DNA from: Kineothrix sp. MB12-C1
GTDB taxonomy: Bacteria; Bacillota; Clostridia; Lachnospirales; Lachnospiraceae
Length of the DNA stretch: 64,000 nt
Assembly (NCBI RefSeq): GCF_030863805.1
Contig: NZ_CP132957.1
Coordinates: 3,224,001 to 3,288,000, forward strand
Reading direction: 5' to 3'
In this document: positions 5,940-49,357 of the stretch, piece after piece
Position numbering within the stretch: the stretch's first letter is position 1
Layout of the letters: every line of letters starts with the position of its first letter
Translations under genes and position numbers: made by a program
Notes under the pieces: generated by a model
Told to the model about the DNA's origin: nothing
The model's input: the letters and a program-made list of their open reading frames with translations, nothing else
The model's database searches: none

Positions 5940-6053
5940 TTGTAATAGTTACTGTTCACAGGTAATATTCCGCGAAGTCAAAATCGCTCTCTATGCGATT
6001 TTGCGCGATATTGTTGCTGTGAACACCATAGGTGTGAACAGTAACTTGTAATA
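5940..6053. mobile_element. MITE-like palindromic element (98 bp) with exact 8-bp target duplication
   Basis: The element at 5948-6045 starts GTTACTGTTCACA and ends with the reverse complement TGTGAACAGTAAC. It is flanked on both sides by TTGTAATA (5940-5947 and 6046-6053). The interior folds on itself through AAAATCGC/GCGATTTT. It carries no ORF. The termini match the other GTAAC-ended elements of this window (18221-18247, 18690-18820, 49217-49349). Confidence 0.85.
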
Positions 6054-6202
6054 TTTAGGGTAACCAATTTGTCGAATAGTATTTTTGCGTTTTCAGCTAT
6101 CCTATGTTAAAATAAATCAAGAAAATGGCTGTGTAATTGCTATACGGCCCGGGAGGAGAGCTTGCGGGAGGCAATGCTCAAATATAAGGAGTGGAGTGAA
6201 TT

Positions 6203-6931
6203 ATGAAAAAGAGAAATTGGACGATACTTGCTATGCTGCTTATCGTTGTAGTAATGGCAGCATGTGGAAGTTCCGGTAATTTGGCGGCTAATGAATTGAC
6301 AGCGATACCCGTAAAGGATTCTTCTATGGTAGAGACAGAAACAGTAGGGGCTGTTAATGGGATGGACGAAATTGTGGATGAAGTTATAAATAATCGACAG
6401 GGGGATACGATAGAGGGCGAAGATGCTATAAGAGATGAGATACCGGAAGAGGAAGTGGCGGAAACGCAGAGCATACAGAAGCCGGAAGAAGAGCTTGTTG
6501 TGAAGGAAGAAATGGAAGAGCTGACTGTATATTTTAGCAATAAAAGAGCGGATGGTCTGGAAACTGAGGTCATATCCGTAGAGAAGATTACGCCTGAAAT
6601 AATTATCGATCATCTGGCGATACATAATATCGTTTCTATCGATACGAAGGTGAATGAATTCGAAGAGACTGCGGAGGAAGGCCGGAATCTCCTTAAACTG
6701 GATCTTTCTAAGGCATTTGGAGAATATTTAAAGACGATGGGAACCAGCGGAGAAATTATGATTATGGCGGCGTTGACGGATACCTTTCTACAGGCATATG
6801 AGGCAGACGCACTGCAGCTTACGGTAGAAGGTGCTGTGATTGAGACCGGTCATGAAATATATGAGGAGCCACTCACTTTTACAGATATGGAGACTACTGT
6901 GGATTCGCAAGAAGAAGTGGATAGAGGATAG
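6203..6931 (+). CDS. Lipoprotein with GerMN domain
   Basis: A 242-residue exported lipoprotein. Residues 1-20 are a lipoprotein signal peptide ending MAAC (Cys21). Residues 25-105 are an acidic, low-complexity linker. Residues 107-225 match the GerMN domain known from GerM and related envelope proteins of Firmicutes: VYFSNK, the EIIIDHLAIHN segment, a LLKLDLSKAF strand and the ALTDTFLQAYEADALQLTVEG end. GerM contributes to sporulation and germination in Bacillus; here the role is open. It has a GGAG ribosome site and is followed after 18 bp by the DUF4125 gene, probably as one operon. Confidence 0.85.
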   Translation: MKKRNWTILAMLLIVVVMAACGSSGNLAANELTAIPVKDSSMVETETVGAVNGMDEIVDEVINNRQGDTIEGEDAIRDEIPEEEVAETQSIQKPEEELVVKEEMEELTVYFSNKRADGLETEVISVEKITPEIIIDHLAIHNIVSIDTKVNEFEETAEEGRNLLKLDLSKAFGEYLKTMGTSGEIMIMAALTDTFLQAYEADALQLTVEGAVIETGHEIYEEPLTFTDMETTVDSQEEVDRG

Positions 6932-6949
6932 GAAACTGAGGAGAAAGCC

Positions 6950-7582
6950 ATGGAAGAGATTACAGTAAGGGAACAATTGATTTTCGATATCGTACGAATA
7001 GAATGGGATATGTTCCAGCACGTTTATAATACAGGAGGCAGGGCATCCTGTCAGGAGGATCCGGATACCTTTTTCCGTATGAGAATGAGCCAATGGATGG
7101 CCTATGGAGATCAAATTCTTACGAGTTACATGGAAGACTTAAAACAGGCTCATGAAGAGGGAAGGAATCTTCTGTTTGAGAAATATGGACGGATGATGGA
7201 AGTTACTTATCCTGACGAATATGAGCGAATTCGGGAATATCTTCCGGAAGTATCGCCGGCTAAGATCGAGATAGTGGAGAAAATAGTTGCCATGCATTTA
7301 GAATGGGATAACTATATGATATCTCATTATCCTAATATCAGGCAGATGGGAAGAGTGGTCAAAACCGAGGAAGACTCTGCGGCAAATGGCTCTTCTATGG
7401 AAAGTTATCTTCGCGGAGAGCTTTTGACTTATTCCGAGCGTACAATTGAACTTATGTTGTTACAGACTGTAGATGCTTACGAAAGAGGAGAGAATATCGT
7501 AAAACAAATTATTGAAAACGAAACGAAATTCTACGGATATCACAGTCTGGAAGAGGCGGAGAAAAAGCATGGAAGCATCTAG
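6950..7582 (+). CDS. DUF4125 family protein
   Basis: A 210-residue soluble protein of the DUF4125 family, recognisable from the [20 protein letters not shown] opening (residues 19-38), the [14 protein letters not shown] stretch and the [15 protein letters not shown] helix. In Clostridia the domain often occurs near radical-SAM or glycyl-type genes, but no such partner is seen here. It follows the GerMN lipoprotein gene and is followed by a strong bidirectional terminator. Biochemical function is unknown. Confidence 0.82.
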
Positions 7583-7600
7583 ATTCCAGAACCACATAAA

Positions 7601-7652
7601 AAATACCCCGGCAGTAGGAGGAGAAGATCCATCCATACTTGCCGGGGTATTT
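7601..7652. terminator. Bidirectional terminator between DUF4125 and DUF6320 genes
   Basis: A 13-bp perfect stem, AAATACCCCGGCA (7601-7613) with TGCCGGGGTATTT (7640-7652). It serves the convergent genes on either side. Confidence 0.85.
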
Positions 7653-7662
7653 GATTATAAAC

Positions 7663-8367
7663 TTAGAAATGTAATCGGCGTCTTACCTCATCCCGTAGTC
7701 TTCTTTTAGACAGCAGGGTGATAAGGGCGATAACGATAACGCCGCAGGCAGTCAGTACGACTGCGGACCAAGACAGACCGAGGGATCTGTAAAGAAAGCG
7801 ATCGATCAGAAGCTCAATTCCCACGCATAAGACGGCGGTTTCTGCAAAGATATAAAGGGCTGTCGTAACAAAGGAAACGGGAAAGGCACGTATTAACAGC
7901 GTGAAAAGTTCCACGAGTAGTGTAATAAGGGCGATAATCGGCAGGGCGAGCCGCCAAAACCATTCATCGGAGGGAGTGAGGTAAGCGATCATATATAGAT
8001 AGACACCTACTGCAATACCATCAAAGAGAAGGGACAGGTAAATCGGGAGCTTCGTGTAGATGACGGCCGGAATGGCAAGGACGAATAGAATGATACATAT
8101 ACCGATAATAAGCAAAGACCACATGCTATGGTTGAAAACAAGAAGATTAAGAAGCGCACAGCTTGCAGCGGTAGCACCGAGAACTACCGATAAGAAGATA
8201 CCGAGATCCTTTCTTTTTACGACTTCGACCTGGCCCTTTTCCTTAGGGTAGGAAGAAGCGCGCTCCATTTGAACGAGTTCATTCGGATTAATAACAGGTG
8301 TATGGCAGAGCGGGCACTTTTCCGAACTGGATTCGAGTTCCACGCCGCAATTAACGCAATATGACAT
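7663..8367 (-). CDS. DUF6320 zinc-ribbon membrane protein
   Basis: A 234-residue protein with an N-terminal zinc ribbon (Cys4, Cys7, Cys18, Cys21) followed by about six hydrophobic segments from residue 52 to 222, and a basic C-terminus. This arrangement matches DUF6320 proteins of Lachnospiraceae. It is the second gene of a leftward pair, 11 bp after the acyltransferase-like gene; I recall this pair, with an alpha/beta hydrolase next to it, as recurrent in the family, which suggests a membrane-linked acyl-transfer or ester-metabolising function. That role is inference. Confidence 0.8.
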   Translation of the reverse strand: MSYCVNCGVELESSSEKCPLCHTPVINPNELVQMERASSYPKEKGQVEVVKRKDLGIFLSVVLGATAASCALLNLLVFNHSMWSLLIIGICIILFVLAIPAVIYTKLPIYLSLLFDGIAVGVYLYMIAYLTPSDEWFWRLALPIIALITLLVELFTLLIRAFPVSFVTTALYIFAETAVLCVGIELLIDRFLYRSLGLSWSAVVLTACGVIVIALITLLSKRRLRDEVRRRLHF

Positions 8368-8378
8368 ATATATACCTC

Positions 8379-9695
8379 CTATCGGTTGCTTTCTATTTTC
8401 ACATGGATGCCATCCTGAACCAGCTTGCGGAAGAAGTATCTCTCCACGTCTGCTTCCACAATGCTGCTTGCAAAGTTGATGGTGAGTGTATCCTCGAAAC
8501 TTGAGATAGCGCAGTTGGTGCGGGACGAAAAGGGTTGTCCCATATAAATATCGAATCTTTCAATATGGGGCTTCATATCCTCAGGTACTTTCAGAGCCCC
8601 CATATTAGTCAATCCTGCGGAAGAATTCCTGTCCTGTATTTTCGTATAGAAGAGCCGTACGATGAAATCCTTAATAAAAAGAGGGACAACGCGGATTGCC
8701 GGGTTTCTTTGTGTGGCGGCATTGGTGGTAATATCACCTCTTAGATATTTCTCGTTGATATAATAGCGCATGTAATTGTGTACATGGACAACGATCTCCT
8801 CAAAAGTATACTCTCCAAGCCTGGGATCGATGGAAGGATAAATCATGGTAATGAAGTTGCGCAGCGTTTTAGAGGGGAAGAAACGCCGCAGATTGACAGG
8901 CATGGCTATTTTAACGGGACGAAGCCTGACATGCCGTTCACCTGCCTGTTTTTGTAAAAGAGCATAGAGAAGAACTGAATTTAAATATTCCGTAATTGTA
9001 GCATTGTATTTGGATGCGACGGCAATTACTTCTTTCACGGAGAGAATGCCGTCAATGATATTAAGTGTATAAAAAGGTTCTTTCGTACCTCGAACCCGAT
9101 AAGCCTTTTCACCGAGCCGTGGCGGGCGTACCTGGGCGTTGGCATAGCGCATATAGGCATCCTCCAGTTCCTCGGGATGCGGTTCCTTTTCCACATCAAG
9201 AACAAAACCGCCATTTGAAATCGTATGGCCGAGAAGCCGGAGATAGACGGCAGTAATTGTCTGGAGTACACACATGCCGCCACTGCCGTCCCCCAGGCTA
9301 TGATGAGCCTCTAAGGCAATCCGGCATTCATGATAATAAATCCGGATAAGATAACGGTTATTGGCTCTAAAGGGCATGGGCATACATGGATTTTTGATGT
9401 CGGGCTGAACGAAAGGTCCCGGCCTGTTATTTGGCTCCATGTACCTCCAGAACAGACCTGTTCGAATAGAGACCTTATAGGTAGGAAAACGGTTAAGGGC
9501 GATATCCACTGCCTGCTGTAATATCTCTGGCCGAATGTTCTCCTTCAACACGACAGAGAGCCGATAAACAGAGGAAAAGTCCTTGCGCTGCAGGGTGGGA
9601 TAGACGATAGCGGATAGGTCCAGCTTGTACCATGTTTTCCGTTCGTTTCGTTTATTTACAGTTTTTCTATTGGCAATTCTTTTGTTTGCGGCCAT
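8379..9695 (-). CDS. Condensation/alcohol-acetyltransferase-like acyltransferase
   Basis: A 438-residue cytoplasmic protein of the CoA-dependent acyltransferase fold shared by condensation domains, PapA enzymes and alcohol acetyltransferases. The catalytic HHxxxDG motif is HHSLGDG at residues 131-137, with His132 as the expected base. An N-terminal basic stretch (residues 1-22) precedes the fold. It is the first gene of a leftward pair with DUF6320 and is divergent from an alpha/beta hydrolase gene 133 bp away. Acyl donor and acceptor are unknown. Confidence 0.82.
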   Translation of the reverse strand: MAANKRIANRKTVNKRNERKTWYKLDLSAIVYPTLQRKDFSSVYRLSVVLKENIRPEILQQAVDIALNRFPTYKVSIRTGLFWRYMEPNNRPGPFVQPDIKNPCMPMPFRANNRYLIRIYYHECRIALEAHHSLGDGSGGMCVLQTITAVYLRLLGHTISNGGFVLDVEKEPHPEELEDAYMRYANAQVRPPRLGEKAYRVRGTKEPFYTLNIIDGILSVKEVIAVASKYNATITEYLNSVLLYALLQKQAGERHVRLRPVKIAMPVNLRRFFPSKTLRNFITMIYPSIDPRLGEYTFEEIVVHVHNYMRYYINEKYLRGDITTNAATQRNPAIRVVPLFIKDFIVRLFYTKIQDRNSSAGLTNMGALKVPEDMKPHIERFDIYMGQPFSSRTNCAISSFEDTLTINFASSIVEADVERYFFRKLVQDGIHVKIESNR

Positions 9696-9828
9696 AAATA
9701 ATCCTCGGAATAAAAAGATTTTGGAAAGATTTTATCTTATTGATAGAGTATACCACAAAATGCAAATTATGTGATAAAATTGACTTAAAAATGATGTTAT
9801 TGTTATTGAGAAAGGCAAAGGTACTGCA

Positions 9829-10725
9829 ATGGCATTGTCCGATAAAAGAAATCAGAATCTTATGAACCTTATTAAGAGAGTACATAATGTAGTGGAAAAT
9901 TCAGATATTGAAAAGCACAGGCAGTCTCAGGACTATTTCGGTGCATTGCTCGGAAACAGTAAGGAGACGACAGTTAGGGCGGTCTCAATAGGAGATATGT
10001 ACGGAGAATGGATATCTGTGAACCGCGCTCACATGAAGAAACATGTGATACTTTATTGCCACGGAGGAGGATATACGACAGGAAGCAGCCAGTATGCGAG
10101 AACACTGACAACTAAGCTGGCGATGTCCACCTCTATGGATGTGTTGAGCTTCGATTATAGGCTGGCACCTGAACATCCTTATCCTGCAGCGTTAGAAGAT
10201 GCGATGGAAGCGTGGAATTATCTTATGCTTCTCGGATATGGAGCGAGGGATGTTGTCATAGCAGGGGATTCTGCCGGAGGGAATCTGGCCCTTGTCCTCA
10301 CCCATAAATTAAAGGAAGAGGGAAGGCTTCTTCCCAAAGGTCTTGTGTTGATGTCGCCGTGGACGGACCTTACCTTATCGGGCAAATCCCATGAGACGAA
10401 ACAGGACGTGGATCCTGTTCTTAGTGAAGAATATATCGGTCAGATGATCGATAATTATGCGAAAGGGCAGGAGCTTCAAGAACCGCTCATTTCTCCGTTA
10501 TTCGGCGATTTCGAAGGATTCCCTGCTACTTATATTCAGGTGGGAGACAACGAAGTGCTGTTAAATGATGCGACTATGCTTCATAAAAAGATGCAAAAGG
10601 CGAATGTGGCCGTTCAGATAGAAGTGTTTAAGGGAATGTGGCATGTATTTCAGATGTCCCCTTTCAAGACGGCTTATGAAGCAATGGAGAAAAATGCGGA
10701 ATTTATTTATCATATTTATCGTTAA
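9829..10725 (+). CDS. Alpha/beta hydrolase of the hormone-sensitive-lipase family
   Basis: A 298-residue esterase. The HGGGY oxyanion motif is at residues 78-82 and the nucleophile is Ser148 in GDSAGGN; the acid-residue region VGDNEVLL and His in GMWHVF complete the triad. These are the HSL-family marks. No signal peptide, so cytoplasmic. It is divergent from the acyltransferase/DUF6320 pair, so it may hydrolyse esters made by them or use the same acyl groups (inference). A hairpin terminator follows. Confidence 0.9.
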   Translation: MALSDKRNQNLMNLIKRVHNVVENSDIEKHRQSQDYFGALLGNSKETTVRAVSIGDMYGEWISVNRAHMKKHVILYCHGGGYTTGSSQYARTLTTKLAMSTSMDVLSFDYRLAPEHPYPAALEDAMEAWNYLMLLGYGARDVVIAGDSAGGNLALVLTHKLKEEGRLLPKGLVLMSPWTDLTLSGKSHETKQDVDPVLSEEYIGQMIDNYAKGQELQEPLISPLFGDFEGFPATYIQVGDNEVLLNDATMLHKKMQKANVAVQIEVFKGMWHVFQMSPFKTAYEAMEKNAEFIYHIYR

Positions 10726-10762
10726 AATAAAGGAATTTTGAAATCTTCCTAGAATATTTAAT

Positions 10763-10801
10763 AAAGGGAATGTCTATTAATCCTAATAGCCCGTTCCCTT
10801 T
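10763..10801 (+). terminator. Terminator after the alpha/beta hydrolase gene
   Basis: Outer stem AAAGGGAA/TTCCCTTT and inner stem CTATTA/TAATAG form one long hairpin ending in a T-rich arm. Confidence 0.7.
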
Positions 10802-10832
10802 GTGATAATAAATAGTGACGGGAGCAGTCAAG

Positions 10833-11846
10833 GTGAGTATGTTGATTCGAAAGAAACTGGAACAGTGGGAAAAAGAATATTTAAGCCCTTATGCTTCCCT
10901 TAGTATGAACTCCAAAGGAAGGCTTAGAGAAGAGGAACAATGCGATATTCGCCCGGTTTATCAAAGGGATAGAGACCGTATATTGCATAGCAAGGCATTC
11001 AGGCGTTTGAAGGATAAAACGCAGGTTTTCCTGACACCGGAAGGAGATCATTACCGGACAAGGTTGACGCATACGCTTGAGGTATCTCAGAATGCACGTA
11101 CTATTGCTAAGGCACTTAGGCTGAATGAAGATTTGGTAGAAGCGATTGCTCTTGGTCATGATTTGGGGCATACGCCGTTTGGTCATGCGGGAGAACGCGC
11201 TCTCAACAGAGTATGCCCTTATGGTTTCTGCCATAGTGACCAAAGTGTCCGGACCGTGGATATTCTGGAGAAGAGTGGACAAGGGCTGAATCTGACGGAA
11301 GAAGTCAGAGATGGGATACGGAATCATCAGACGAAAGGAATGCCCTCCACGCTGGAAGGGAAGATTGTTCGATTTTCGGATAAAATCGCCTATATTCATC
11401 ACGATATGGATGATGCCGTCAGAGGAGGTATCTTGCAGGAAGCCGATGTGCCAAAGGAGATTACGGAGGTAATCGGAGTGACAACGGGTGAGCGGTTAGA
11501 TCATTTCATTCATGATCTGGTGACAACAAGCTATGAAAGAGACGATATTATGATGTCTCCCCCGGTAGCGGAAGCTATGGGAAAACTGAGAAAGTTCATG
11601 TTCGAACGAGTATATCAGAATGATGAAGCTAAGAGCGAGGAGCGAAAGGCAGAAACGTTAATGGAATCTCTGTATGAATATTATCTGCGGCATCTGGAAC
11701 TGCTGCCTCAGTATCTGCTGGTTCGCATGGAGCAGGAAGAGGAAGCAGCGGAGATTATCGTATGTGATTTTATAGGAGCGATGACGGACCGGTTCGCAAT
11801 CGCAAAATATGAAGAATTATTTATTCCTAAATCATGGCACTATTAA
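10833..11846 (+). CDS. dgt: Deoxyguanosinetriphosphate triphosphohydrolase (dGTPase), HD superfamily
   Basis: A 337-residue HD-domain enzyme that hydrolyses dGTP (or other dNTPs) to the nucleoside and tripolyphosphate. Seen are the family N-terminus SPYASLSMNSKGR, the YQRDRDRILHSKAFRRLKDKTQVF segment, the first metal His in RLTHTLEVSQ and the HD pair in LGHDLGHTPFGHAGE. The start is taken as GTG 10833, eight bases after GGGAG; ATG 10839 is also possible. It heads the rightward group dgt-dnaG-rpoD-trmK-nif3, a common clostridial arrangement that ties nucleotide quality to replication start and sigma factor supply. Confidence 0.92.
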   Translation: MSMLIRKKLEQWEKEYLSPYASLSMNSKGRLREEEQCDIRPVYQRDRDRILHSKAFRRLKDKTQVFLTPEGDHYRTRLTHTLEVSQNARTIAKALRLNEDLVEAIALGHDLGHTPFGHAGERALNRVCPYGFCHSDQSVRTVDILEKSGQGLNLTEEVRDGIRNHQTKGMPSTLEGKIVRFSDKIAYIHHDMDDAVRGGILQEADVPKEITEVIGVTTGERLDHFIHDLVTTSYERDDIMMSPPVAEAMGKLRKFMFERVYQNDEAKSEERKAETLMESLYEYYLRHLELLPQYLLVRMEQEEEAAEIIVCDFIGAMTDRFAIAKYEELFIPKSWHY

Positions 11847-11900
11847 GATGTGACAATAATGAAAAGACTATATTAGTGAGGGAACCGAACTATTATATTT

Positions 11901-11927
11901 GTAACTGTGAGAGAAGCGAACTGTTGC
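11901..11927. repeat. Mini GTAACTG palindrome upstream of dnaG
   Basis: GTAACTG at 11901 pairs with CTGTTGC ending at 11927 in the same spacing as the 27-bp element at 18221-18247. No clear target duplication is visible, so it may be an old copy. Confidence 0.5.
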
Positions 11928-11942
11928 AGAAGGGAAATAAGC

Positions 11943-13718: not shown

Positions 13719-13758
13719 CGATAATACTATGACTACATGAGGAAGGATGGAACCCAAA

Positions 13759-14871: not shown

Positions 14872-14885
14872 TCGGATGAAATAAA

Positions 14886-15662: not shown

Positions 15663-15678
15663 GGAAAGGAGACCGCAC

Positions 15679-16501: not shown

Positions 16502-16534
16502 GTTGCTGGGTGCAGCGGAGCTGTGAACAGTAAC
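16502..16534. repeat. GTTGCTG/CAGTAAC palindrome before the nucleoside kinase gene
   Basis: A 33-bp segment starting GTTGCTG and ending GAACAGTAAC, matching the ends of the MITE-like family. No target duplication seen. It ends 14 bp before the kinase GTG start, so it forms part of its leader. Confidence 0.45.
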
Positions 16535-16548
16535 GATAGGAGGGTATC

Positions 16549-18212: not shown

Positions 18213-18255
18213 GAATAATAGTAACTGAAAAGGTACTGAACAGTTACGAATAATA
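18213..18255. mobile_element. 27-bp minimal GTAAC-ended element with 8-bp target duplication
   Basis: The 27-bp core at 18221-18247 begins GTAACTG and ends CAGTTAC. Directly on both sides stands GAATAATA (18213-18220 and 18248-18255). It therefore looks like a tiny inserted element made of little more than two terminal repeats. It lies between the kinase stop and the 5' end of rnpB. Confidence 0.75.
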
Positions 18256-18265: not shown

Positions 18266-18614
18266 GCTAAGTAGAATAAATGATCGCGGCTGCAATTCCG
18301 AAAGGAAGCAGGTGAGGAAAGTCCGGGCTTCGTAGGGCAGGATGCCGGATAACGTCCGGTGGAGGTGACTCCAAGGATAGTGCAACAGAAATGAACCGCC
18401 CCGCATTGCGGGGTAAGGGTGGAAGGGCAGTGTAAGAGACTACCGTCCGTCTGGTAACAGACGGAGCCATGTAAACCCCATCCGAAGCAAGACCGAATAG
18501 AAAGCAATAGGCCGGCCCGGCCTGCTTTCAGGTGGGTCGCTCGAGGTTATCGGCAACGATAATCCTAGATAGATGATCATTCACGACATAACCCGGCTTA
18601 TCGTTCTGCTTAGC
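18266..18614 (+). ncRNA. rnpB: RNase P RNA (catalytic subunit)
   Basis: The universal 5' core GAGGAAAGTCCGGGCT occurs near 18313 and the matching 3' core ACATAACCCGGCTTATCG near 18585, about 270 nt apart. The ends pair as helix P1: GCTAAGTAGAA at 18266-18276 with TTCTGCTTAGC at 18604-18614. The long-range elements between them, including the GCAAGACCGAATAG segment, are those of a bacterial RNase P RNA. It processes the 5' ends of pre-tRNAs. A terminator follows 14 nt later. Confidence 0.93.
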
Positions 18615-18627
18615 AAGAACATATAAC

Positions 18628-18681: not shown

Positions 18682-18828
18682 AGTTGAGAGTAACTATTCA
18701 GTAGGTCTGCGCATCTGCTGCGCTGACCGTAAAATACGTGGAAAAGCAAGTGAAAATCCCATCATCGCAGATGATTTTAATGGATTTTCACATGTGACTG
18801 TGAGGGAACTGAACAGTTATAGTTGAGA
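18682..18828. mobile_element. MITE-like element (131 bp) with 8-bp target duplication, copy A1
   Basis: The element at 18690-18820 starts GTAACTATTCAG and ends CTGAACAGTTAT, near-perfect inverted termini, and is flanked by AGTTGAGA on both sides (18682-18689, 18821-18828). Its first 43 bp are nearly identical to copy A2 at 49217-49349. It has no ORF and inner hairpins around CATCATC/GATGATT. It lies between the rnpB terminator and the protease gene. Confidence 0.88.
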
Positions 18829-23736: not shown

Positions 23737-23739
23737 AAA

Positions 23740-23765
23740 TAACTGTGAGGGTAGTGAACAGTTAC
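23740..23765. repeat. Mini TAACTGT/ACAGTTA palindrome
   Basis: A 26-bp copy of the small GTAAC-family hairpin between the two CobW-type genes, 13 bp before the second start. No convincing target duplication. Confidence 0.5.
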
Positions 23766-35882: not shown

Positions 35883-35983
35883 ACGTAGAAAAGCAAGTGA
35901 AAATCTCATCACCAAAAGTGATTTTAATAGATTTTCATAAAGCAATCTTTGCTTTTGTAACAGTGAGGGTACTGAACTGTTAT
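35883..35983. repeat. Truncated A-family repeat in the marR leader
   Basis: It shares the AAAAGCAAGTGAAAAT and GATTTTAATRGATTTTCA blocks of copy A1 and ends with GTAACAG...CTGTTAT (35957-35983), but lacks the first ~50 bp and has no visible target duplication. It occupies most of the 5' untranslated region between the promoter and marR. Confidence 0.65.
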
Positions 35984-41416: not shown

Positions 41417-41519
41417 TTTGTGCATGGAAATGCTTTAAAAATAAGAGACATATGTTTGTTGAAAATTAGAACTTGACAATTATAAAAAATTAGATTAAGG
41501 TATATTAAAAGAAATAGAC

Positions 41520-41798
41520 AATAAACCTGTGAGAAAGAGTAGTAAGTATCAGGAACTGTTACAGAGAGCTGTCGGTGGTGGAAGGCAGTACAGGAAATTT
41601 TACTGAATGGACTTTCGAGGCCGGACTGAACTTATAGTAGGTTCCGGCGGGATTCGGCCCCGTTATCCTCCCGACATGTATGACAGTACATGGTAGAGTG
41701 GTCATGTTTTAGGCATGGCAATTTGAGTGGTACCGCGATAATAATACTATTTTAAGATTATTACCGTCTCAAGCGATTATTAGCTTGAGGCGGTTTTT
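41520..41798 (+). promoter_or_regulatory. T-box leader with tryptophan (UGG) specifier
   Basis: The 5' part has the stem I AG-bulge region (CAGAGAGCTG) and the specifier segment CTGAATGGACTTTCGAG, where the codon in the specifier position is TGG (41608-41610). The T-box sequence TTGAGTGGTACCGCG ends at 41737. The terminator stem pairs CCGTCTCAAGC (41764-41774) with GCTTGAGGCGG (41783-41793) before T5. Uncharged tRNA-Trp should stabilise the antiterminator and turn on the trpXYZ-type genes. The base after TGG in the T-box is T, which would pair with an A73 discriminator. Confidence 0.88.
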
Positions 41799-41829
41799 AT
41801 GTTATAGGAAATTGCGTCTTATAACATAA
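41794..41829. repeat. Second hairpin directly after the T-box terminator
   Basis: TTTTTATGTTATA (41794-41806) is the exact reverse complement of TATAACATAAAAA (41817-41829); the left arm starts inside the terminator T-run. It resembles the 14-bp inverted repeat at 2488-2551. Confidence 0.55.
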
Positions 41830-41935
41830 AAAGCACTACGTGCAGGATGTGCACCTCGCGGAGAGGAGGTATATTGCTTCGCAATCCGCTAGGGTGCCAA
41901 GAATGTACCAAGGCACATTCTTTGTTCGTTCCATA
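41830..41935 (+). other. Structured leader of unknown kind upstream of trpX
   Basis: The 106 bases carry a run of short hairpins: GTGCAGGATGTGCAC, CCTCGCGGAGAGG, TTGCTTCGCAA and AAGAATGTACC/GGCACATTCTT. They lie between the T-box terminator and the trpX ribosome site, and no ORF is evident. They may be a mobile repeat or an additional regulatory RNA. Confidence 0.45.
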
Positions 41936-41964
41936 GGTATAAAATAATAAAGGAGAAGAAAATT

Positions 41965-42963
41965 ATGAAAAAGAAAATTTTAGCAATGGTGTTATCGATG
42001 ACAGTTATAGCAGCGGCGTTTGCGGGCTGCGGACAGAAAGGTACGGGGAGCTATGTCGTAGGTATTTCTCAGTTTGCCGAGCACGGTTCCTTGGATAACT
42101 GTAAGAATGGTTTTCTTGCAGGTCTTGAGGAAGAGGGAATAAAGGAAGGGGAGAATCTGATGGTTCTTTTCGATAATGCACAGGCGGATACGGGTACGGC
42201 GAGCACAATAGTTGATAATTATGTATCTCAGAAGGTAGATATGATTTGCGCCATTGCAACACCGAGTGCTATGAGTGCTTATAACTCTACTATGAATACA
42301 GAGATTCCTGTTATCTATACGGCGGTTTCCGATCCTGTGGAGGCTGGTCTTGCGGATGATGATGGTTTACCTACCGGCAATATTACGGGAACTTCAGATG
42401 CACTTGCAGTATCGGCACAGCTTGAGATGATTCGCAGCGTCTTACCGGGGGCGAAAACAATAGGTATTCTTTATACGACCAGTGAGGTGAATTCTATCAG
42501 TGCGATAGAAGAATATAAGAAATATGCAGGCGATTATGGATTTGAAATTGTGGAAAGCGGAATCAACACTATCGCCGATGTGGGAATTGCGGCAGCAGAT
42601 ATTGTAACAAAGGTTGACTGTCTTACGAATTTGACGGATAATACAGTAGTATCCGCTCTTCAAACAGTAATTGATTCGGCGAATACTGCAGGTATTCCTG
42701 TATTCGGTTCGGAAGTGGAGCAGGTAAAAGCAGGTTGTGTAGCTTCCATGGGACTTGAATATTTCGAACTCGGCAAACAGACCGGAAGAATGGCAGCTAA
42801 GGTTTTAAAAGGGGAAGCAAAGGCTTCCGATATGAAGTTTGAAGTAATTTCGGAACCCAGTTTATATGTGAACACAGCAGCGGCGGAGAAAATCAATCTT
42901 GCCCTTGACAGTGCATTTGTAGACAGTGCTTATGAGAAATTCGAGGAAATTATAGTAGAATAA
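41965..42963 (+). CDS. trpX: ABC transporter substrate-binding lipoprotein, TrpX type
   Basis: A 332-residue receptor of the PF04392 family. The lipoprotein signal ends FAGC (Cys22). It shows GISQFAEHGSLDNCKNGFLAGL, NIVDNYVSQKVDMICAIATPSA-like sequence, PGAKTIGILYTTSE and GSEVEQVKAGCVAS. In streptococci this receptor type, TrpX, belongs to a tryptophan transporter controlled by T-boxes, in agreement with the UGG specifier upstream. The gene follows the T-box leader by about 165 bp. Confidence 0.85.
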   Translation: MKKKILAMVLSMTVIAAAFAGCGQKGTGSYVVGISQFAEHGSLDNCKNGFLAGLEEEGIKEGENLMVLFDNAQADTGTASTIVDNYVSQKVDMICAIATPSAMSAYNSTMNTEIPVIYTAVSDPVEAGLADDDGLPTGNITGTSDALAVSAQLEMIRSVLPGAKTIGILYTTSEVNSISAIEEYKKYAGDYGFEIVESGINTIADVGIAAADIVTKVDCLTNLTDNTVVSALQTVIDSANTAGIPVFGSEVEQVKAGCVASMGLEYFELGKQTGRMAAKVLKGEAKASDMKFEVISEPSLYVNTAAAEKINLALDSAFVDSAYEKFEEIIVE

Positions 42964-42985
42964 GTTTTTAAGTGGAGGAATGACA

Positions 42986-43879
42986 GTGACTTTATTGCTC
43001 AGCGTGTTGGAACAAGGTATGATATATGCGATTATGGCTCTTGGAGTGTATATTACCTATAAAATATTGGATTTTCCCGATTTGACGGTGGACGGAAGCT
43101 TCCCGATGGGAGCAGCCGCGACTTGTATGTTAATCGCTTCGGGAGTAAATCCTCTTATAACGCTCCCTATTACCTTTATAGGGGGAGCTTTCATAGGAGT
43201 ATGTACCGGGCTGATTCATGTGAAATTAAAGGTAAGGGATTTATTGTCGGGAATTATTATGATGACGGCACTCTATACGGTTAATCTCCGGATTGCAGGA
43301 AGGGCCAACCTGCCTATTTATAACATGGACACCATCTTTGATAACGGTTTTGTTAACACCTTGTTCCCTGCGGGCATGACAGCGTATAAAAAGGTAATTA
43401 TTATCTTAATTATTACATTTCTTACGAAATATTTATTGGATGCCTATATGAGTACGAAGTCAGGATTCTTACTTCGTGCGGTAGGAGATAACGATACGAT
43501 TGTTACATCCTTAGGTGTGGATAAAGGCTTTGTAAAAATTGTCGGTCTTGCTATCGCCAATGGGTTGGTAGCGCTCAGCGGTTGTATTTTTGCACAGCAG
43601 CAAAGATATTTCGATATTTCCATGGGAACCGGAACGGTAGTTATCGGTCTTGCCAGTGTTATTATCGGAACGAGTTTTTTTAAAAAAATTACATTTTTCA
43701 ATATTACTTCCAGCGTGGTTCTGGGTTCAGTGTTGTATAAGGGCTGTGTGGCTCTTGCAATCAGAATCGGGCTTCCGTCAACGGATCTTAAGTTGATTAC
43801 CGCAGTGCTGTTCCTTATCATACTCGTGATCGGTATGGATCGGAAGAAGACAGGAGGAAAACATGCTAGAACTAATTAA
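42986..43879 (+). CDS. trpY: ABC transporter permease, TrpY type
   Basis: A 297-residue permease with about nine transmembrane helices and the family opening EQGMIYAIMALGVYITYKILDFPDLTVDGSFPMGAA. Belongs to the branched-chain-type permease fold. GTG 42986 lies seven bases after GGAGG and is preferred over ATG 42980, which abuts the ribosome site. Overlaps the ATPase gene by 17 bp. Confidence 0.85.
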   Translation: MTLLLSVLEQGMIYAIMALGVYITYKILDFPDLTVDGSFPMGAAATCMLIASGVNPLITLPITFIGGAFIGVCTGLIHVKLKVRDLLSGIIMMTALYTVNLRIAGRANLPIYNMDTIFDNGFVNTLFPAGMTAYKKVIIILIITFLTKYLLDAYMSTKSGFLLRAVGDNDTIVTSLGVDKGFVKIVGLAIANGLVALSGCIFAQQQRYFDISMGTGTVVIGLASVIIGTSFFKKITFFNITSSVVLGSVLYKGCVALAIRIGLPSTDLKLITAVLFLIILVIGMDRKKTGGKHARTN

Positions 43880-44636
43880 TATCAATAAAAATTATAATCC
43901 CGGTTCTATCAATGAACTTTGTCTTTTCCAGGATTTTAATCTTACGATACAGGATGGACAGTTCGTGTCTGTAGTGGGAAGTAATGGTTCCGGTAAAACT
44001 TCTATGTTAAACATTATCTGCGGAAGTATCGATATCGACAGCGGTAAGATTGTGGTAAACGGAGAGGATATATCCGGAAAGAAGGATTTCTTAAGACAGC
44101 GCAAAATCGGCCGCGTTTATCAGGACCCGTCAAAAGGGACGTGTCCGAGCATGAATATTCTCGAAAACATGTCCATTGCGGATAATAAAGGAAAAAGGTA
44201 CGGCTTAGGACGTGGAGTGAATAAGGCGAGAACAGAGTATTACAGAGACTTATTAAGACCCTTGAATCTGGGGCTGGAAGATAAGCTGCATACTCAGGTA
44301 GGTTCTTTATCCGGCGGTCAGCGTCAGGCATTGGCTCTTCTTATGTCTACGATGTCTCCTATTGAGTTCCTCATATTGGATGAGCATACAGCGGCACTCG
44401 ACCCGAAAACGGCAGAAATCATTATGGAATTGACCGATAAAATTGTCAGAGAGAAAAAAGTGACGACAATTATGGTGACTCATAATCTCCGATATGCGGT
44501 GGAATATGGGGATAGAATTCTAATGATGCACGAAGGAAATGCCATTCTGGATAAGGCCGGAGAAGAAAAAGGTAGTCTGGAAACAGAGGAAATCATGGGA
44601 ATCTTCAATCGTATTAGCGTCGAATGCGGTAATTGA
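43863..44636 (+). CDS. trpZ: ABC transporter ATP-binding protein, TrpZ type
   Basis: A 257-residue ATPase with Walker A GSNGSGKTS, Q-loop VYQDPSKGT, signature LSGGQRQ and Walker B FLILDEHTAALDPKT. Note His in place of the second part of DEPT. Energises tryptophan uptake with TrpX and TrpY. AGGAGG site upstream. Confidence 0.88.
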   Translation: MLELININKNYNPGSINELCLFQDFNLTIQDGQFVSVVGSNGSGKTSMLNIICGSIDIDSGKIVVNGEDISGKKDFLRQRKIGRVYQDPSKGTCPSMNILENMSIADNKGKRYGLGRGVNKARTEYYRDLLRPLNLGLEDKLHTQVGSLSGGQRQALALLMSTMSPIEFLILDEHTAALDPKTAEIIMELTDKIVREKKVTTIMVTHNLRYAVEYGDRILMMHEGNAILDKAGEEKGSLETEEIMGIFNRISVECGN

Positions 44637-44800
44637 GAATTGTACAAAGAAAAAGAGATATTTTATTTGGAATAGTAGAAGGTAAGAAAACTTTTCATAG
44701 AATATATAGTAGAAAAGCGGGAATTATAGAAATAGGAACGGTTGAAAATTATGTAAAAGAAGCCGTTACCAAATCTATAAGGAAGGCGGAACTTAAAAAA

Positions 44801-45058
44801 ATGAAAAGTTTCCGATATAAGATAACTGATTATCCTGAGAAATTCGAGCATCCGGCCGGGCAGCTTGTAAGAAAAGCTCTAAAGTATGCGTCAGCAATTT
44901 CTGTCAGTGTGAATGACAGCTTGGGAGATGCGAAACGGATTCTCAGCATTATGTCTCTTAGGCTTATGGAAGGAGACGAGGTTCTTGTGGAAGCGGAAGG
45001 GCCGGACGAAGCGAAGGCCGTGGTAGAATTGGCAGAGTTTTTTAAAGATAATTTATAG
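44801..45058 (+). CDS. HPr-like protein without the phosphorylatable histidine
   Basis: An 85-residue protein of exactly HPr length and pattern (MKSFRYKITD..., DAKRILSIMSL, DEVLVEAEGPDEAKAVVEL). Aligned on the PAG motif, the active-site segment normally read as HARPAG is FEHPAG here, so His15 is Phe and Arg17 is His. The Ser46 position is Arg. It can therefore not act as a normal PTS phosphocarrier. The start is uncertain: the frame is open back to TTG 44633, but that 56-residue extension is not HPr-like and has no ribosome site. It lies between trpZ and the PTS regulator. Confidence 0.7.
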   Translation: MKSFRYKITDYPEKFEHPAGQLVRKALKYASAISVSVNDSLGDAKRILSIMSLRLMEGDEVLVEAEGPDEAKAVVELAEFFKDNL

Positions 45059-45105
45059 AGCGTCCTTGTTTATGAAAGATTAAAGTCCATAAATAAGGGC
45101 GTTTT
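45059..45105 (+). terminator. Terminator after the HPr-like gene
   Basis: GCGTCCTTGTTTATG pairs with CATAAATAAGGGCGT (with some G-U pairs), followed by T5. Confidence 0.8.
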
Positions 45106-45135
45106 TATGTATTAAGATATATTTATGAAATAAAT

Positions 45136-47067
45136 TTAGAAATGCTCTTTATACATATCCTCTAATATAATTTTTATTGTATCGATAACTTCATCGTATA
45201 TTTTGCATTTGCTGACGGAAAGTACATGAGCTTCATTGGTAAAAATATGAATGAGCTGATTGAAAACAGAGCGGAACATTTTGCGCTCATGATAAGCAAT
45301 CCCGATTAAAATTACAAGCTTTACTGTTTCGTCATTCCATGTTTGACCTTTGTCATAACAGGTGAAAGAAATAAAACTCTTCTTAATTTGATGGCTGATA
45401 GAATGCGGAATAGCGATACCGTTATGAAAGCAAGTGGAAGAAAGCCTTTCGCGTTTAATTACATCATCGGGAAAAGAAGGCATAAAATAGTCCAGAGGCT
45501 CCATTTTATTTAGAATCTTATTAATAACCTGGAACTCGTCGTTACCTGTAATATTTGTGAAAAATAATTTCTCACTGAACATATATTTGAAGGCAGATTC
45601 GAATTGATCGTATTTCTGCTTGTGAATGAGCGCGTTGGTGTGTGATCGGATTATGGCAATTTCTCCTTCCGTAATGAAAGGCGAAATGACAATAATATCT
45701 TTATTTCGAATCCCCACTTCACTGATAACAATATCTTCTTTAATATCTGAAGATGCATAATTATCAGCAGAAATACTGAATTTGATATTCAGACGGTCGT
45801 TAAATAATTTTTGAATCTTTTCAATATTATAACGATAAAATTCATGATAATTAGAATAAACATAAATTGCAGCGAGCTTATCCTTATTCATTTGGTTGCT
45901 TTCAAAAAAGCTGCCGATATGCAGGGCGATAAAAGAAATTTCATCCTGATTTATCATGTGCTTTGTTTCGGTATAAATGATATCCGCTACAAAAACTGCA
46001 ATATCATATATCAAAGGATAGGTTGACATAATCTCTTTTGAAAGAGGAGAATGAACGGAAAAGTTTGTATTGATCCGTTTAAGCAGGTTGTCCATATGCA
46101 ACATAAACCTTGTTACAAATATCTCATCAAAATCATCTAAAGCATAATATTCTTTGATTTTCAACAGTATAAGCTGTGTTAAATATTCGCTTTCATCAGT
46201 GATGTAATTGCTTATATTTTTTGCATTAGCAAAATTGTAGTCAACGGTGACAAGATTGCAGGATAAAAACATCGTTAAATTCTGCTTTTCTGATGCAGAA
46301 AAAACGATATCATAACTTTTTTCTAGAAAAGAAATAATATTTTCGGCGACTTCTTTTTCCGTATTTGTTATAGAGATAGACGGCAAAAAATCGGTAATTT
46401 CGCATTGCTGTCTCAATCTGTCAATTGTGATAACGAGATGAAGTGCAATATTATTAAGAGAATAGTCATTAAAAAAGATATGAGACTCATTGAACATCTT
46501 CTTCAGATTTTGCTTAAGAAAATCTATCTGATAGCTTTCATTCAAATACTTTGTTTTATCGCTGCTTATAAAATTTGCATAATAATCAGAGGTAATCAAA
46601 GTGCTTGTAAGTCGGCGCTTATCTTTCTCTGTTCCAACAAGTGAAACTTGATCATCCCTAATTAATAATTTTAAATTGAAGGCAGAAATATTTCGCCTGA
46701 CTCTTATAAGGTCGCGGTCAATAGTAGGTCTGCTGACATAGAGTTCATCTGCCAAATCAAAAATATCCAAAGGTTCGGCAGATAAAAGTAACTTTGACAA
46801 AATGCTGGACCTTCTGTCTTTGGGCAGATAATCCGTATCTTCGAATAGATGCATATATGAGTTATAATTATCACATAGCCGATATTCGTTAGAATTCATT
46901 TGAATAATAATTGTATTAGGAGAAGTAGTTTCGTTAAGCTGCTTTATATAATTCTTTATTTGTTTTTGAGAAATTCCAAATTTGTCAGAAATCCTTTTTA
47001 GAGAGAGATTTATTGACGAATGTTTGATGAAATAATCTAAAATATCTCTCGATTTATTTTGACGCAT
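45136..47067 (-). CDS. PRD-containing transcription regulator with PTS EIIB/EIIA-like domains
   Basis: A 643-residue BglG/LicR-type activator. Domains: an HTH_11 (about residues 8-55), a second HTH (about 75-130, LADELYVSRPTIDRDLIRVRRNI), two PRDs (about 175-390) with paired His such as FMLHMDN and FIALHIG, an EIIB-like region (about 400-490) and a fructose/mannitol-type EIIA domain at the C-terminus with active His in GIAIPHS. PTS phosphorylation of PRD and EIIA histidines would tune activity. ATG 47067 follows AAGGAGGAG. Divergent from the PTS operon it should regulate. Confidence 0.9.
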   Translation of the reverse strand: MRQNKSRDILDYFIKHSSINLSLKRISDKFGISQKQIKNYIKQLNETTSPNTIIIQMNSNEYRLCDNYNSYMHLFEDTDYLPKDRRSSILSKLLLSAEPLDIFDLADELYVSRPTIDRDLIRVRRNISAFNLKLLIRDDQVSLVGTEKDKRRLTSTLITSDYYANFISSDKTKYLNESYQIDFLKQNLKKMFNESHIFFNDYSLNNIALHLVITIDRLRQQCEITDFLPSISITNTEKEVAENIISFLEKSYDIVFSASEKQNLTMFLSCNLVTVDYNFANAKNISNYITDESEYLTQLILLKIKEYYALDDFDEIFVTRFMLHMDNLLKRINTNFSVHSPLSKEIMSTYPLIYDIAVFVADIIYTETKHMINQDEISFIALHIGSFFESNQMNKDKLAAIYVYSNYHEFYRYNIEKIQKLFNDRLNIKFSISADNYASSDIKEDIVISEVGIRNKDIIVISPFITEGEIAIIRSHTNALIHKQKYDQFESAFKYMFSEKLFFTNITGNDEFQVINKILNKMEPLDYFMPSFPDDVIKRERLSSTCFHNGIAIPHSISHQIKKSFISFTCYDKGQTWNDETVKLVILIGIAYHERKMFRSVFNQLIHIFTNEAHVLSVSKCKIYDEVIDTIKIILEDMYKEHF

Positions 47068-47255
47068 ACACTCCTCCTTTACTACTTTATATTTACTCTT
47101 ATAATAATACCTCATACTTTAAAAAGCAAAAAATATTAGCATCTTTTAAATACCTGAAAGCGGTAATTAAAAAATTTGAAAAGCTAAGAGAATAACTATA
47201 AAATTTAAGAAAATAGTAACGTTGCAGAAAATAAAACAATAAGGAGAAAGTATAT

Positions 47256-47561
47256 ATGGAAATTCTTTTCGTATGCGGCGGAGGTGCCTCTAGCAGCTTT
47301 ATAGCTCAAAACGTAAGAAAAGCAGGAAAAAGTACAGGGGTAGATGTTAATGTGGAGGCTATCGGTGAGACAGAATTAGAGGATTATATAGAAGGCAAAG
47401 ATATTATTTTAATCGGGCCGCATCTTAAATATCTGGAAGATGACCTTGCTGAAATTATTAACGAATATAATGTCCCATATGCATTTATAAGCGAGCAGGA
47501 TTACGCCAAAATGAATGGGGAATCGATCTTGGAGCAAGCATTTAAACTAACAGAAGAATAA
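47256..47561 (+). CDS. PTS lactose/cellobiose-type EIIB component
   Basis: A 101-residue phosphotransfer protein. Phosphorylated Cys7 sits in LFVCGGGASSSF. Receives phosphate from the IIA protein encoded two genes on and passes it to the sugar in IIC. First gene of the operon, with GGAGAAAG ribosome site. Confidence 0.93.
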   Translation: MEILFVCGGGASSSFIAQNVRKAGKSTGVDVNVEAIGETELEDYIEGKDIILIGPHLKYLEDDLAEIINEYNVPYAFISEQDYAKMNGESILEQAFKLTEE

Positions 47562-47583
47562 AGAGGAAAGAAGGGATAACATT

Positions 47584-48858
47584 ATGAATAAGTTTATTGA
47601 TTGGATGACAAATTCATTCGGACCGAAAGCGGGAAAAGTTGCAAAGAACCCTTGGGTAGCATCGGTACAGGAAACAATGGTTGCTATTATGCCCGTTATG
47701 TTGATTAGTTCATTCATAACGATTTTATCGATTCTAAATGAATATATTGAGAATTTTCCTGATTTCTCCTATATCAGTACTTTTACGTTTGGATTGAGCA
47801 GTATTTTTGTTGCATTCTTAATACCGACCTTTGTTTTGGAAAAATATAAATTACCGAAGTATAAAAGACAAGCAGGGCTTATGGGCGTTGCACTTATGCT
47901 TATGATGAGCCAGAGTGTTTTTGATGCAGATGGAAATTTTGTAGTAGCGGCAGATCGGATCGGTTCAGGCGGAGTGTTCGTGGCAATTGTTGCCGGAATC
48001 TTTACAGCCTTAGTAATGAAGTTTTTCAGTAAAAGGAGTCTGTTTAAGAAAGATACACAGCTTCCTAAGTTTTTGGTAGATAGCTTCGATAGTATTGCCC
48101 CTATTGTTGTCATTATGGTAGTCTCATTTATATTGTGTAATATTCTGGGATTAGACCTTTATGCTTATGTAAATGTTGCGGTATCACCATTAATTAACAT
48201 TGCACAGAGTTTTGGCGGATTCGTTCTCATCATGTTTTTAATGTGCTTCTTCTATTCCTTTGGTTTAAGTCCTTGGATTTTAACACCTGTTTATTATACG
48301 GTTGGTGTGCAGGCCATAGCAGAGAATGCTAAAATGGTAGCAGAAGGCGGCGCGGCTACATTAATCACAACTAATGAAGTGTTTGGCGGCTGGGTATGGT
48401 TAGGCGGAACCGGATGTACATTGATGTTATGTGTGATCTTTGCCTTCTTTACCAAATCGGGAAGATTGAAAGGTTTGGGCAGGACGTGCCTTATCCCGGG
48501 AATCTTTAATATCAATGAACCGGTAGTTTATGGCTCGATCGTATTTAATCCATTATTGATGATCCCTATGTGGATATGCGGAATTATAGTGCCGGCACTG
48601 ACATACATCACATTTAAGCTGGGGATGGTAACAGTTCCTTCTGATAGTTTCCTCCTTTGGTATATGCCGGTAGGCTTGCAGACATATATGACAAATCATG
48701 ATTTTAGAGGTCTGATTTTATTAGCGGTATTGCTTGCATTGACATTTATCATTTATTACCCATTTGTAAAGGTATATGATAAACAGTGTTTAAAGGAAGA
48801 AATGGAAGAAAGAGCTAAGAAAGAGGAAGCAGAAGCTAGAAAAGCAAAAGCGCTGTAA
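47584..48858 (+). CDS. PTS cellobiose/lichenan-type EIIC permease
   Basis: A 424-residue membrane protein with about ten transmembrane helices. Family motifs are GWVWLGGTGCTLMLC, IPGIFNINEPVVYGSIVFNP and MWICGIIVPALTYITFKLG. Ends with a Glu/Lys/Ala-rich cytoplasmic helix. Takes up and phosphorylates a beta-glucoside, probably cellobiose or an aryl-beta-glucoside, as suggested by the GH1 gene in the operon. Confidence 0.92.
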   Translation: MNKFIDWMTNSFGPKAGKVAKNPWVASVQETMVAIMPVMLISSFITILSILNEYIENFPDFSYISTFTFGLSSIFVAFLIPTFVLEKYKLPKYKRQAGLMGVALMLMMSQSVFDADGNFVVAADRIGSGGVFVAIVAGIFTALVMKFFSKRSLFKKDTQLPKFLVDSFDSIAPIVVIMVVSFILCNILGLDLYAYVNVAVSPLINIAQSFGGFVLIMFLMCFFYSFGLSPWILTPVYYTVGVQAIAENAKMVAEGGAATLITTNEVFGGWVWLGGTGCTLMLCVIFAFFTKSGRLKGLGRTCLIPGIFNINEPVVYGSIVFNPLLMIPMWICGIIVPALTYITFKLGMVTVPSDSFLLWYMPVGLQTYMTNHDFRGLILLAVLLALTFIIYYPFVKVYDKQCLKEEMEERAKKEEAEARKAKAL

Positions 48859-48907
48859 CTGCTAAGCAATAGATTAAATAAGATAAGAATTGAAAGTGAG
48901 GATAAAG

Positions 48908-49231
48908 ATGACAACGGAAGAGATGAATGAGCAGGCAATGGAAATTATAGTGAATGCGGGGAACGGGAGAACATTGTTAAATAAAGCATTGGAGGCTTTG
49001 TATGAAGGAGATGAAGAGCTTTATAGTTCCCATATGGAGGACGCCAGAAAAGAAATGGTAGCGGCCCATGCAGCACAGACTAAAGTTCTCCAAAGTACGA
49101 TTGAAGACGAAGAAGTAAGACCTAATATTTTATTTACACATGCACAAGATACATTAATGACAATTATGAGTGAGATGAATATTGCAAAACACTTGGAAAA
49201 AATAGTAAGAATGATTGTAACTATTCAGTAG
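48908..49231 (+). CDS. PTS lactose/cellobiose-type EIIA, C-terminus altered by a MITE-like insertion
   Basis: A 107-residue helical phosphocarrier. Active His78 and metal-binding Asp81 lie in THAQDTLM, in the canonical positions. ATG 48908 has GAGGAT upstream. The last four codons and the stop (VTIQ-stop) come from the element at 49217-49349. If the element and one target copy are removed, the frame ends KESK and its TAA overlaps the ATG of the next gene. All catalytic residues are intact. Confidence 0.9.
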   Translation: MTTEEMNEQAMEIIVNAGNGRTLLNKALEALYEGDEELYSSHMEDARKEMVAAHAAQTKVLQSTIEDEEVRPNILFTHAQDTLMTIMSEMNIAKHLEKIVRMIVTIQ

Positions 49232-49357
49232 GTCTGCGCATTTACTGCGCTGACCGTACGATAACATCGAATAACAAGTAAAAATCCTATCACCGAAGGT
49301 GATTTGAAATGGATTTTTGCTCGTAACTGGGCAAGTACTGAACAGTTACGAATGATT
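49209..49357. mobile_element. MITE-like element (133 bp) with 8-bp target duplication, copy A2
   Basis: The element at 49217-49349 starts GTAACTATTCAG and ends CTGAACAGTTAC. Flanks are GAATGATT on both sides (49209-49216, 49350-49357). The first 43 bp nearly match copy A1 at 18690. It is inserted at the junction of the IIA and 6-phospho-beta-glucosidase genes. Confidence 0.9.

Follow-up and report, generated by a model that had tools for sequence, protein, structure and literature searches.

The window, a 64,000-nucleotide stretch of the genome of the gut bacterium Kineothrix sp. MB12-C1, contains short repeats that are very probably miniature inverted-repeat elements (MITEs), non-autonomous and moved in trans by a transposase cutting its target with an 8-bp stagger. 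MITEs are short, have terminal inverted repeats and target duplications, and occur in many copies. Here, inverted termini of the type GT(A/T)AC(T/A)(G/A)TTCA were found, with subfamily B starting GTTAC, and the copies are multiple and dispersed. In the subfamilies read, one end is a 27-34 bp palindrome in which the terminus is repeated on the inner side (as GTTAC, GTCAC or GCAAC), and the other end is plain. Three related subfamilies, A, B and C, differ in their bodies, which are self-folding and too short to encode a transposase.

The initial annotation listed four loci with perfect 8-bp repeats, and their coordinates and sizes (98, 27, 131 and 133 bp) were all reproduced (table below). It took them as one family. 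The inverted ends are indeed shared, but there is no common body: the 98-bp element belongs to subfamily B, the 131- and 133-bp elements belong to subfamily A, and the 27-bp locus is a subfamily A end alone. Nor is this locus merely another size. It represents a separate class, the solo ends, which recur and are found in several genera.

Repeat elements, solo ends and 8-bp target copies in the window
Feature	Position	Strand	Remarks
Subfamily B element, 98 bp	5948..6045	+	right end is a 33-bp palindrome at 6013-6045; RNA fold z -5.44
Left and right 8-bp target copies TTGTAATA, perfect	5940..5947 + 6046..6053	.	flank the 5948-6045 element
Solo end, 27 bp (only the palindromic end of subfamily A)	18221..18247	-	close upstream of rnpB, which encodes RNase P RNA (18268-18616); RNA fold z -2.03, 10/200 shuffles equally good
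Left and right 8-bp target copies GAATAATA, perfect	18213..18220 + 18248..18255	.	flank the solo end 18221-18247
Subfamily A element, 131 bp	18690..18820	-	palindromic end 18794-18820; RNA fold z -4.00
Left and right 8-bp target copies AGTTGAGA, perfect	18682..18689 + 18821..18828	.	flank the 18690-18820 element
Subfamily A palindromic end, without matching flank repeat	23739..23765	-	
Subfamily A palindromic end with adjoining body, without matching flank repeat	35957..35983	-	decayed or truncated copy
Subfamily A element, 133 bp	49217..49349	-	palindromic end 49323-49349; PTS IIA gene on one side, GH1 gene on the other; RNA fold z -5.55
Left and right 8-bp target copies GAATGATT, perfect	49209..49216 + 49350..49357	.	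flank the 49217-49349 element
Subfamily C element, 142 bp	58439..58580	+	fifth perfect element, absent from the initial annotation; RNA fold z -4.11
Left and right 8-bp target copies ATAAAATC, perfect	58431..58438 + 58581..58588	.	flank the 58439-58580 element

Pairing of end-like sequences across 1,370,586 bp of the MB12-C1 genome gave 48 exact flank repeats of 8 bp. In the same sample, repeat lengths of 7, 9 and 10 bp gave 7, 0 and 1 repeats, and 8-bp controls shifted by 1, 2, 3, 5 and 10 bp gave 2, 2, 0, 1 and 1; a looser 6-bp control gave 20. The eight controls of at least 7 bp thus range from 0 to 7 against 48 at 8 bp, which is the fixed-length target duplication of a MITE. By chance, random positions of this sample lying 20-160 bp apart had an exact 8-mer in common in 100 of 2,000,000 trials. 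Collecting genome copies by their termini, as had been proposed initially, returned 117 + 130 end matches across the MB12-C1 genome, compared with 11 + 11 for the reversed pattern; end modules numbered 47 + 69, against 0. The argument that different flanks of equal length reflect transposition is upheld by the 8-bp length specificity, the varied targets and the empty sites in a related genome, all of which support transposition through a staggered cut of 8 bp.

When relatives were compared for 8-bp repeats that are absent or ancestral without the element, the sites readable at base level, which lie outside the window's own four elements, favoured insertion. In a pair of congeneric species, one carries a 27-bp solo end where its relative has a 35-bp gap, without remnants of any longer element; about 45 bp downstream of this site another length difference begins, unrelated to the first. 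Elements of 142 bp and 233 bp are likewise absent from the relative with about one target copy left, again between two species of one genus, although these cases are less clean than that of the solo end. At one shared insertion with an identical duplication (GAAACGAA), the two species differ in the length of the element, 142 bp versus 233 bp. Other empty sites are not clean, both for solo ends (AGCGTCGT, where the relative is short by 49 bp and not 35; CAATATTT, about 80 bp) and for 142-bp elements (ATTTGAGG, about 190 bp; CAAAAAAG).

The two window elements flanking rnpB were not seen in other members of the genus, where the intergenic DNA is too diverged for proof. This comparison drew on 16 genus genomes, 2 of them without an rnpB match, and covered 13 other members with such a match: the downstream side was viewed in 13 and the upstream side in 11 (not G007 and G014), and flanks were compared by BLAST in all 13. 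In G011, the corresponding place upstream of rnpB is occupied by about 195 bases of other sequence. A candidate match between a G009 element and a place in the MB12-C1 genome was rejected, the sequence at that place being unrelated. Downstream of rnpB, G014 carries a different solo-like 27-mer with a 2-mismatch repeat, which is missing in G009.

Solo ends were counted in two samples. In the MB12-C1 genome, exact adjacent repeats flank 11 of 76 end modules, or 24 of 76 when up to 2 mismatches are allowed, in a sample that is enriched for modules and in which one site appears on both strands. In other records (119 stretches), 30 of 120 modules are solo ends at up to 2 mismatches, and solo duplications comprise 14 exact and 13 one-mismatch copies. 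By comparison, 30 G261 loci selected for an inner GTCAC comprise 0 solo ends, 18 full copies, 7 copies with other internal deletions and 5 unclassed copies (0/30 versus 30/120, Fisher p 0.0007). Duplications are exact in 25/53 solo ends versus 51/70 longer copies (p 0.005 when pooled; taken separately, p 0.028 in the named records and p 0.22 in the MB12-C1 genome), a lean towards older solo ends that arises partly because old full copies drop into the unclassed category. The first base of solo duplications gave a weak difference (18/54 versus 15/90), summed over three groups of which one runs opposite, with the groups "G261" and "other" omitted.

On balance, solo ends are most likely products of deletion after insertion: an inserted element would lose its body by a deletion with the inner and the outer terminal-repeat copy as its endpoints, and a solo palindromic end would be left. 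Deletion is slightly favoured over transposition of a 27-bp unit. The latter reading, in which the palindromic end of 27 bp (and of 33-34 bp) is itself mobile, with the inner GTTAC serving as second end and an 8-bp duplication being made, is a less probable but serious possibility. It is consistent with exact flanks at both termini in the 11 copies of the MB12-C1 genome and in copies of other records, with the 35-bp gap at the cleanest empty site, and with the lack of solo ends among the 30 G261 loci, whose inner end is changed, a result that speaks for the preferred reading as well. The G432/G141 pair points towards mobility and against deletion: solo ends account for 3/7 lineage-specific insertions and 0/4 shared ones among classed sites, which leave out three further small elements (unmapped or unclassed). 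The two halves of the module also change together (GTAACTATTCAG...CATAGTTAC in G315; GTATC...GATAC in G384, G330 and G276), and one GTATC...GATAC solo end (L379) has an exact duplication. However, the halves co-change in full-length copies too, which may merely reflect the structure of the end. In some solo ends the inner terminus does not resemble the common outer one, namely GATAC in L379 and GCAAC at 467560 and 2111875 (the latter two from matches listed amid many chance ones, of which only rows with recognisable family sequence were used). This would leave only about 3 bp of common sequence for a deletion, and it counts against that reading. Mobility of the short unit is in turn opposed by the greater decay of solo duplications, by the variable internal length at the shared site, by the existence of further small forms of 41-86 bp beside the solo ends, and by the expected physical difficulty of pairing both ends of a 27-bp duplex in one transposase complex.

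Whichever way solo ends arise, a helper transposase, putatively of DDE chemistry, would act in trans on the elements, and its 8-bp staggered cut of the target would yield the duplication. The initial annotation had put forward the IS66 family for this role. The resemblance holds for the GTAA start and the 8-bp duplication, both found in two of the family's IS66 elements, those with readable ends (2/30 loci), and at least four sampled genomes (G028, G066, G106, G141) carry IS66 together with the module. It does not extend to the remaining end sequence: the two elements begin GTAACCGTCAAATAA and GTAAGCGTCAAATAA versus GTAACTGTTCAGTA here, diverging after GTAA or GTAAC, and the GTTAC start of subfamily B departs from them as well. 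A third IS66 end pair (L147, 1344 bp, poor ends) was taken as chance. In addition, PF03050 gave 0 matches in the complete MB12-C1 genome (G000), a heavy carrier of the elements; among heavy carriers, the search covered G000 and G141. With no PF03050 match in this genome and differing ends in the two readable elements, IS66 was not retained as helper, and the elements are unlikely to be IS66-derived MITEs. An IS6/IS26-like helper appears even more doubtful. According to extracts of PMC6807381, IS6/IS26 elements make 8-bp duplications, as here, and have the consensus end GGTTCTGTTGCAAA, whose positions 5-9, CTGTT, are shared; but the ends here start with GT and not with the outer GG, and PF13610 had no match in 9/10 carrier genomes, the MB12-C1 genome included, with one sub-cut-off match in G141.

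The IS with the same ends that the initial annotation advised looking for was not found in the sampled parts of the MB12-C1 genome or of G432/G141. No autonomous element of 0.4-9 kb with exact repeats occurs in 1.37 Mb of the former, where four one-mismatch rows were read as chance, and none with exact repeats is among the matches listed for the G432/G141 pieces. In fetched pieces of other records, none of 120 modules has a partner end more than 300 bp away.

The repeats could also be structural RNA or terminator elements under selection, their 8-bp repeats being incidental. The four full elements in the window fold strongly (RNA fold z -4.0 to -5.6), in agreement with such a role, and placement agrees too: insertions lie between called genes in 59/62 rows (a few sites counted twice), though 84% of the sequence is genic, are often near gene ends, and are oriented opposite to co-directional flanking genes in 32/35 cases. 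The module also shows a replication-strand bias (82/100 listed places, of 116; 37/45 in long pieces), which is inseparable from gene direction; the single informative case followed the gene. On the other hand, Rfam gave no match on the window elements or on three loci, and the duplications are length-specific and lie at different targets. As a full account, this explanation is contradicted because of the empty sites, and we regard it as highly improbable. A secondary function acquired after insertion is possible.

The palindromic-end module is present in several Lachnospiraceae genera and at more than 100 places in one genome. In a phage collection, five matches to the 133-bp element were found, three of them covering at least 80%, all in scaffolds from human faeces that are labelled "Bacteriophage sp." and carry no annotation; duplications are exact in 2/3 fetched copies, and the scaffolds may be phage or bacterial. 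A fourth record has a 27-mer with a 2-mismatch repeat. Viral contigs gave 0 matches to the 27-mer, and plasmid records gave one chance-like match and otherwise none.

Bacterial MITEs in general are the subject of a review (PMC10969869). Like them, the present elements are short and intergenic, are bounded by terminal inverted repeats, duplicate their target and occur in numerous copies. They are set apart from bacterial MITEs in general by one palindromic end and by solo ends with their own duplications; moreover, no helper was found in the sampled parts. Small dispersed repeats of cyanobacteria were reportedly treated by Elhai et al. in 2008. By description, in extracts of PMC2884548, they are alike in size, about 20 bp, and in being possibly mobile. 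An open-licence literature search that included the end sequences returned no title reporting the present elements among the matches listed. Movement of the IS200/IS605 type is not known to leave a target duplication. The 8-bp duplications found here accordingly differ from REP/REPIN sequences, for which no duplication is expected. The latter, in extracts of PMC3116915, are short palindromic extragenic units, single and paired, tied as REPINs to RAYTs and IS200/IS605, and the singlets are read as remnants, partly from deletion.

On either reading of the solo ends, the missing helper is a concrete target to find. If 27-bp ends are mobile alone, they would be among the smallest transposons leaving a target duplication, and would challenge the presumed minimum size of a DDE transposon. 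If solo ends are deletion products, they would show that bacterial mini-transposons can decay to solo ends, in a way comparable with solo LTRs.

The four insertions with GTAAC-type ends that the initial annotation had reported in the window are all present, each between a perfect 8-bp direct repeat, and its account of a family of miniature elements was right overall. A fifth element also carries a perfect 8-bp repeat. The source genome is complete (3,935,490 bp). Folding is strong in the window's four full elements (z -4.0 to -5.6) but only modest (z -2.03) in the solo, an insertion in which the palindromic end stands alone between its own 8-bp duplication. The 3' end of a PTS lactose/cellobiose IIA ORF (48890-49231) lies within the 133-bp element, which provides its final residues and stop codon, and a GH1 gene starts 22 bp past this element. 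A Mur-ligase-domain ORF (57134-58507) likewise ends within the subfamily C element. A subfamily-B-like 33-bp palindrome at 16502-16534 has no matching flank repeats.

Elements and RNA features in the window
Feature	Position	Remark
Subfamily B element	5948	
Solo	18221-18247	subfamily A, outer 27 bp only
Subfamily A element	18690	body common with 49217
Subfamily A element	49217	body common with 18690
Subfamily C element	58439-58580	fifth element
tRNA	2580-2663	
tRNA	4547-4630	
RNase P RNA	18268-18616	
T-box leader	41520-41774	

Genome-wide, there are 117+130 matches to the end pattern GTWACTNTTCA and 11+11 to its reversed form. We paired end-like sequences in 91 pieces of this genome (1,370,586 bp: 60 near-evenly spaced stretches of 20 kb, pattern-picked loci and the window) and found 48 exact 8-bp flank repeats. 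The same pairing yielded 7 repeats at 7 bp, 0 at 9 bp, 1 at 10 bp and, under a looser setting, 20 at 6 bp. Shifting the 8-bp flanks by 1, 2, 3, 5 or 10 left 2, 2, 0, 1 and 1 repeats, and random spacing gave 100 exact 8-mer repeats in 2,000,000. Of the 48, 13 measure 27 bp, more than any other size, and most of the rest 125-164 bp. At 2827257-2827539 of the genome, elements of subfamilies C and A are immediate neighbours, with CTTTTATT present three times, between and outside them; one 8-bp sequence was apparently targeted by two insertions.

The subfamily A end, GTAACTGTTCAGTACCYTCACAGTTAC, is imperfectly palindromic, with an inner GTTAC that resembles the terminus; the far end in this genome is GTAACTATTCAGTAGG. 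Palindromic ends of the other subfamilies measure 27, 31, 33 and 34 bp among the matches listed. In related genomes the palindrome halves co-vary, both in full-length copies and in solos; they read GTAACTATTCAG...CATAGTTAC in one sampled Lachnospiraceae genome (G315) and GTATC...GATAC in three others (G384, G330, G276).

Adjacent 8-bp repeats flank 11/76 modules exactly, 16/76 with at most one mismatch and 24/76 with at most two, in an own-genome sample enriched for modules and with one site entered on both strands. Restricting the count to the even stretches and the window (1,264,000 bp) gave 7 exact, 2 one-mismatch and 4 two-mismatch solos, together with 13 full elements and 19 unresolved copies. 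A stricter palindrome scan picked up 15 tiny elements (23-45 bp, one mismatch or none), versus 1, 0, 0 and 0 in controls. Two solos of 27 and 28 bp (genome positions 35532 and 3932137) have an identical duplication; their flanks, part of a repeated region, match at 96-97% identity, so they are probably one event. Other database records carrying the module (at least 119 stretches) are labeled, among the matches listed, Lachnospiraceae, Blautia, Oliverpabstia, Roseburia, Murimonas, Eubacterium or wider groups. Their at least 120 distinct exact 27-mers comprise 30 solos (at most two mismatches), 51 in elements of 100-300 bp, 3 in shorter elements and 36 unresolved; no partner beyond 300 bp was found within the fetched pieces. 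Carriers amount to 32/397 sampled family genomes at up to two mismatches, and to 7/61 of a first genome set at up to three.

Empty sites were found by comparing 211 kb of G432 and G141, two species of one genus whose mapped flanks are mostly 87-99% identical. A G141 solo (AAGAACAC/AAGAACAT) is absent from G432, leaving a 35-bp gap and one target copy. Similarly, a 233-bp G432 element is absent from G141 and a 142-bp G141 element from G432, each with about one target copy left. G141 likewise lacks two solos and two 142-bp elements found in G432, but the differences there are other or larger. Both species carry an element at the site GAAACGAA, G432 one of 142 bp and G141 one of 233 bp; internal deletion following insertion is the simplest reading of this difference. 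A further type of tiny element in these two genomes, 41-46 bp long, has both ends fused and a duplication that is exact or has one mismatch; the two species share a 41-bp example.

We lean slightly toward deletion as the source of the solos. The differing lengths at the shared site point to it, as do further small internal forms of 41-86 bp. In addition, duplications are more decayed in solos (exact in 25/53 vs 51/70 longer copies; p 0.005 when pooled, 0.028 in the other records and 0.22 in the own genome), in a test that drops unresolved copies (29 and 27), which favours this result. Direct movement of the solo ends, a more doubtful origin, is suggested by their exact termini, by the co-change of the two palindrome halves and by solos that retain an inner end unlike the usual outer end. 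Solos also make up 3/7 lineage-specific and 0/4 shared classed sites in G432/G141, small numbers that exclude two small elements that did not map and one not classed. Among 30 loci of genome G261 picked for an inner GTCAC, with the few GTTAC copies left out, there were 0 solos and 7 internal deletions, a neutral result predicted by deletion and movement alike.

Insertions are intergenic in 59/62 rows, in sequence that simple gene calls mark as 84% genic; the rows include a few sites twice. Targets are AT-rich, and their final position, in module orientation, is C in 50% of 112 longer copies and 41% of 39 solos. The module is oriented opposite to co-directional flanking genes in 32/35 cases and opposed to the leading strand at 82/100 places among the matches listed, two biases that cannot be separated in the present data.

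The IS66 helper proposed in the initial annotation was not supported: no IS66 transposase was found in the complete own genome. IS66 is present in 57/150 family genomes, and its ends, readable at 2/30 loci, differ from the MITE ends after GTAA or GTAAC. IS6-type elements, as reported (PMC6807381), have CTGTT in their ends and an 8-bp duplication in common with the MITEs. An IS6 search (PF13610) gave no match in 9/10 carrier genomes and a sub-cut-off match only in the other. No element of 0.4-9 kb with exact repeats was found in the own-genome sample, nor any element of this size in the G432/G141 pieces. Four candidates of this size in the own-genome sample had one-mismatch repeats and poor ends, and were read as chance. 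From their inverted ends and the fixed length of their duplication, we take the elements to be of the DDE type.

Among the papers listed by literature searches, one of them on the end sequences, no earlier description of these elements was found. They are MITEs, ordinary in kind; what is unusual is that their ends are self-complementary and also occur alone, with target duplications of their own.
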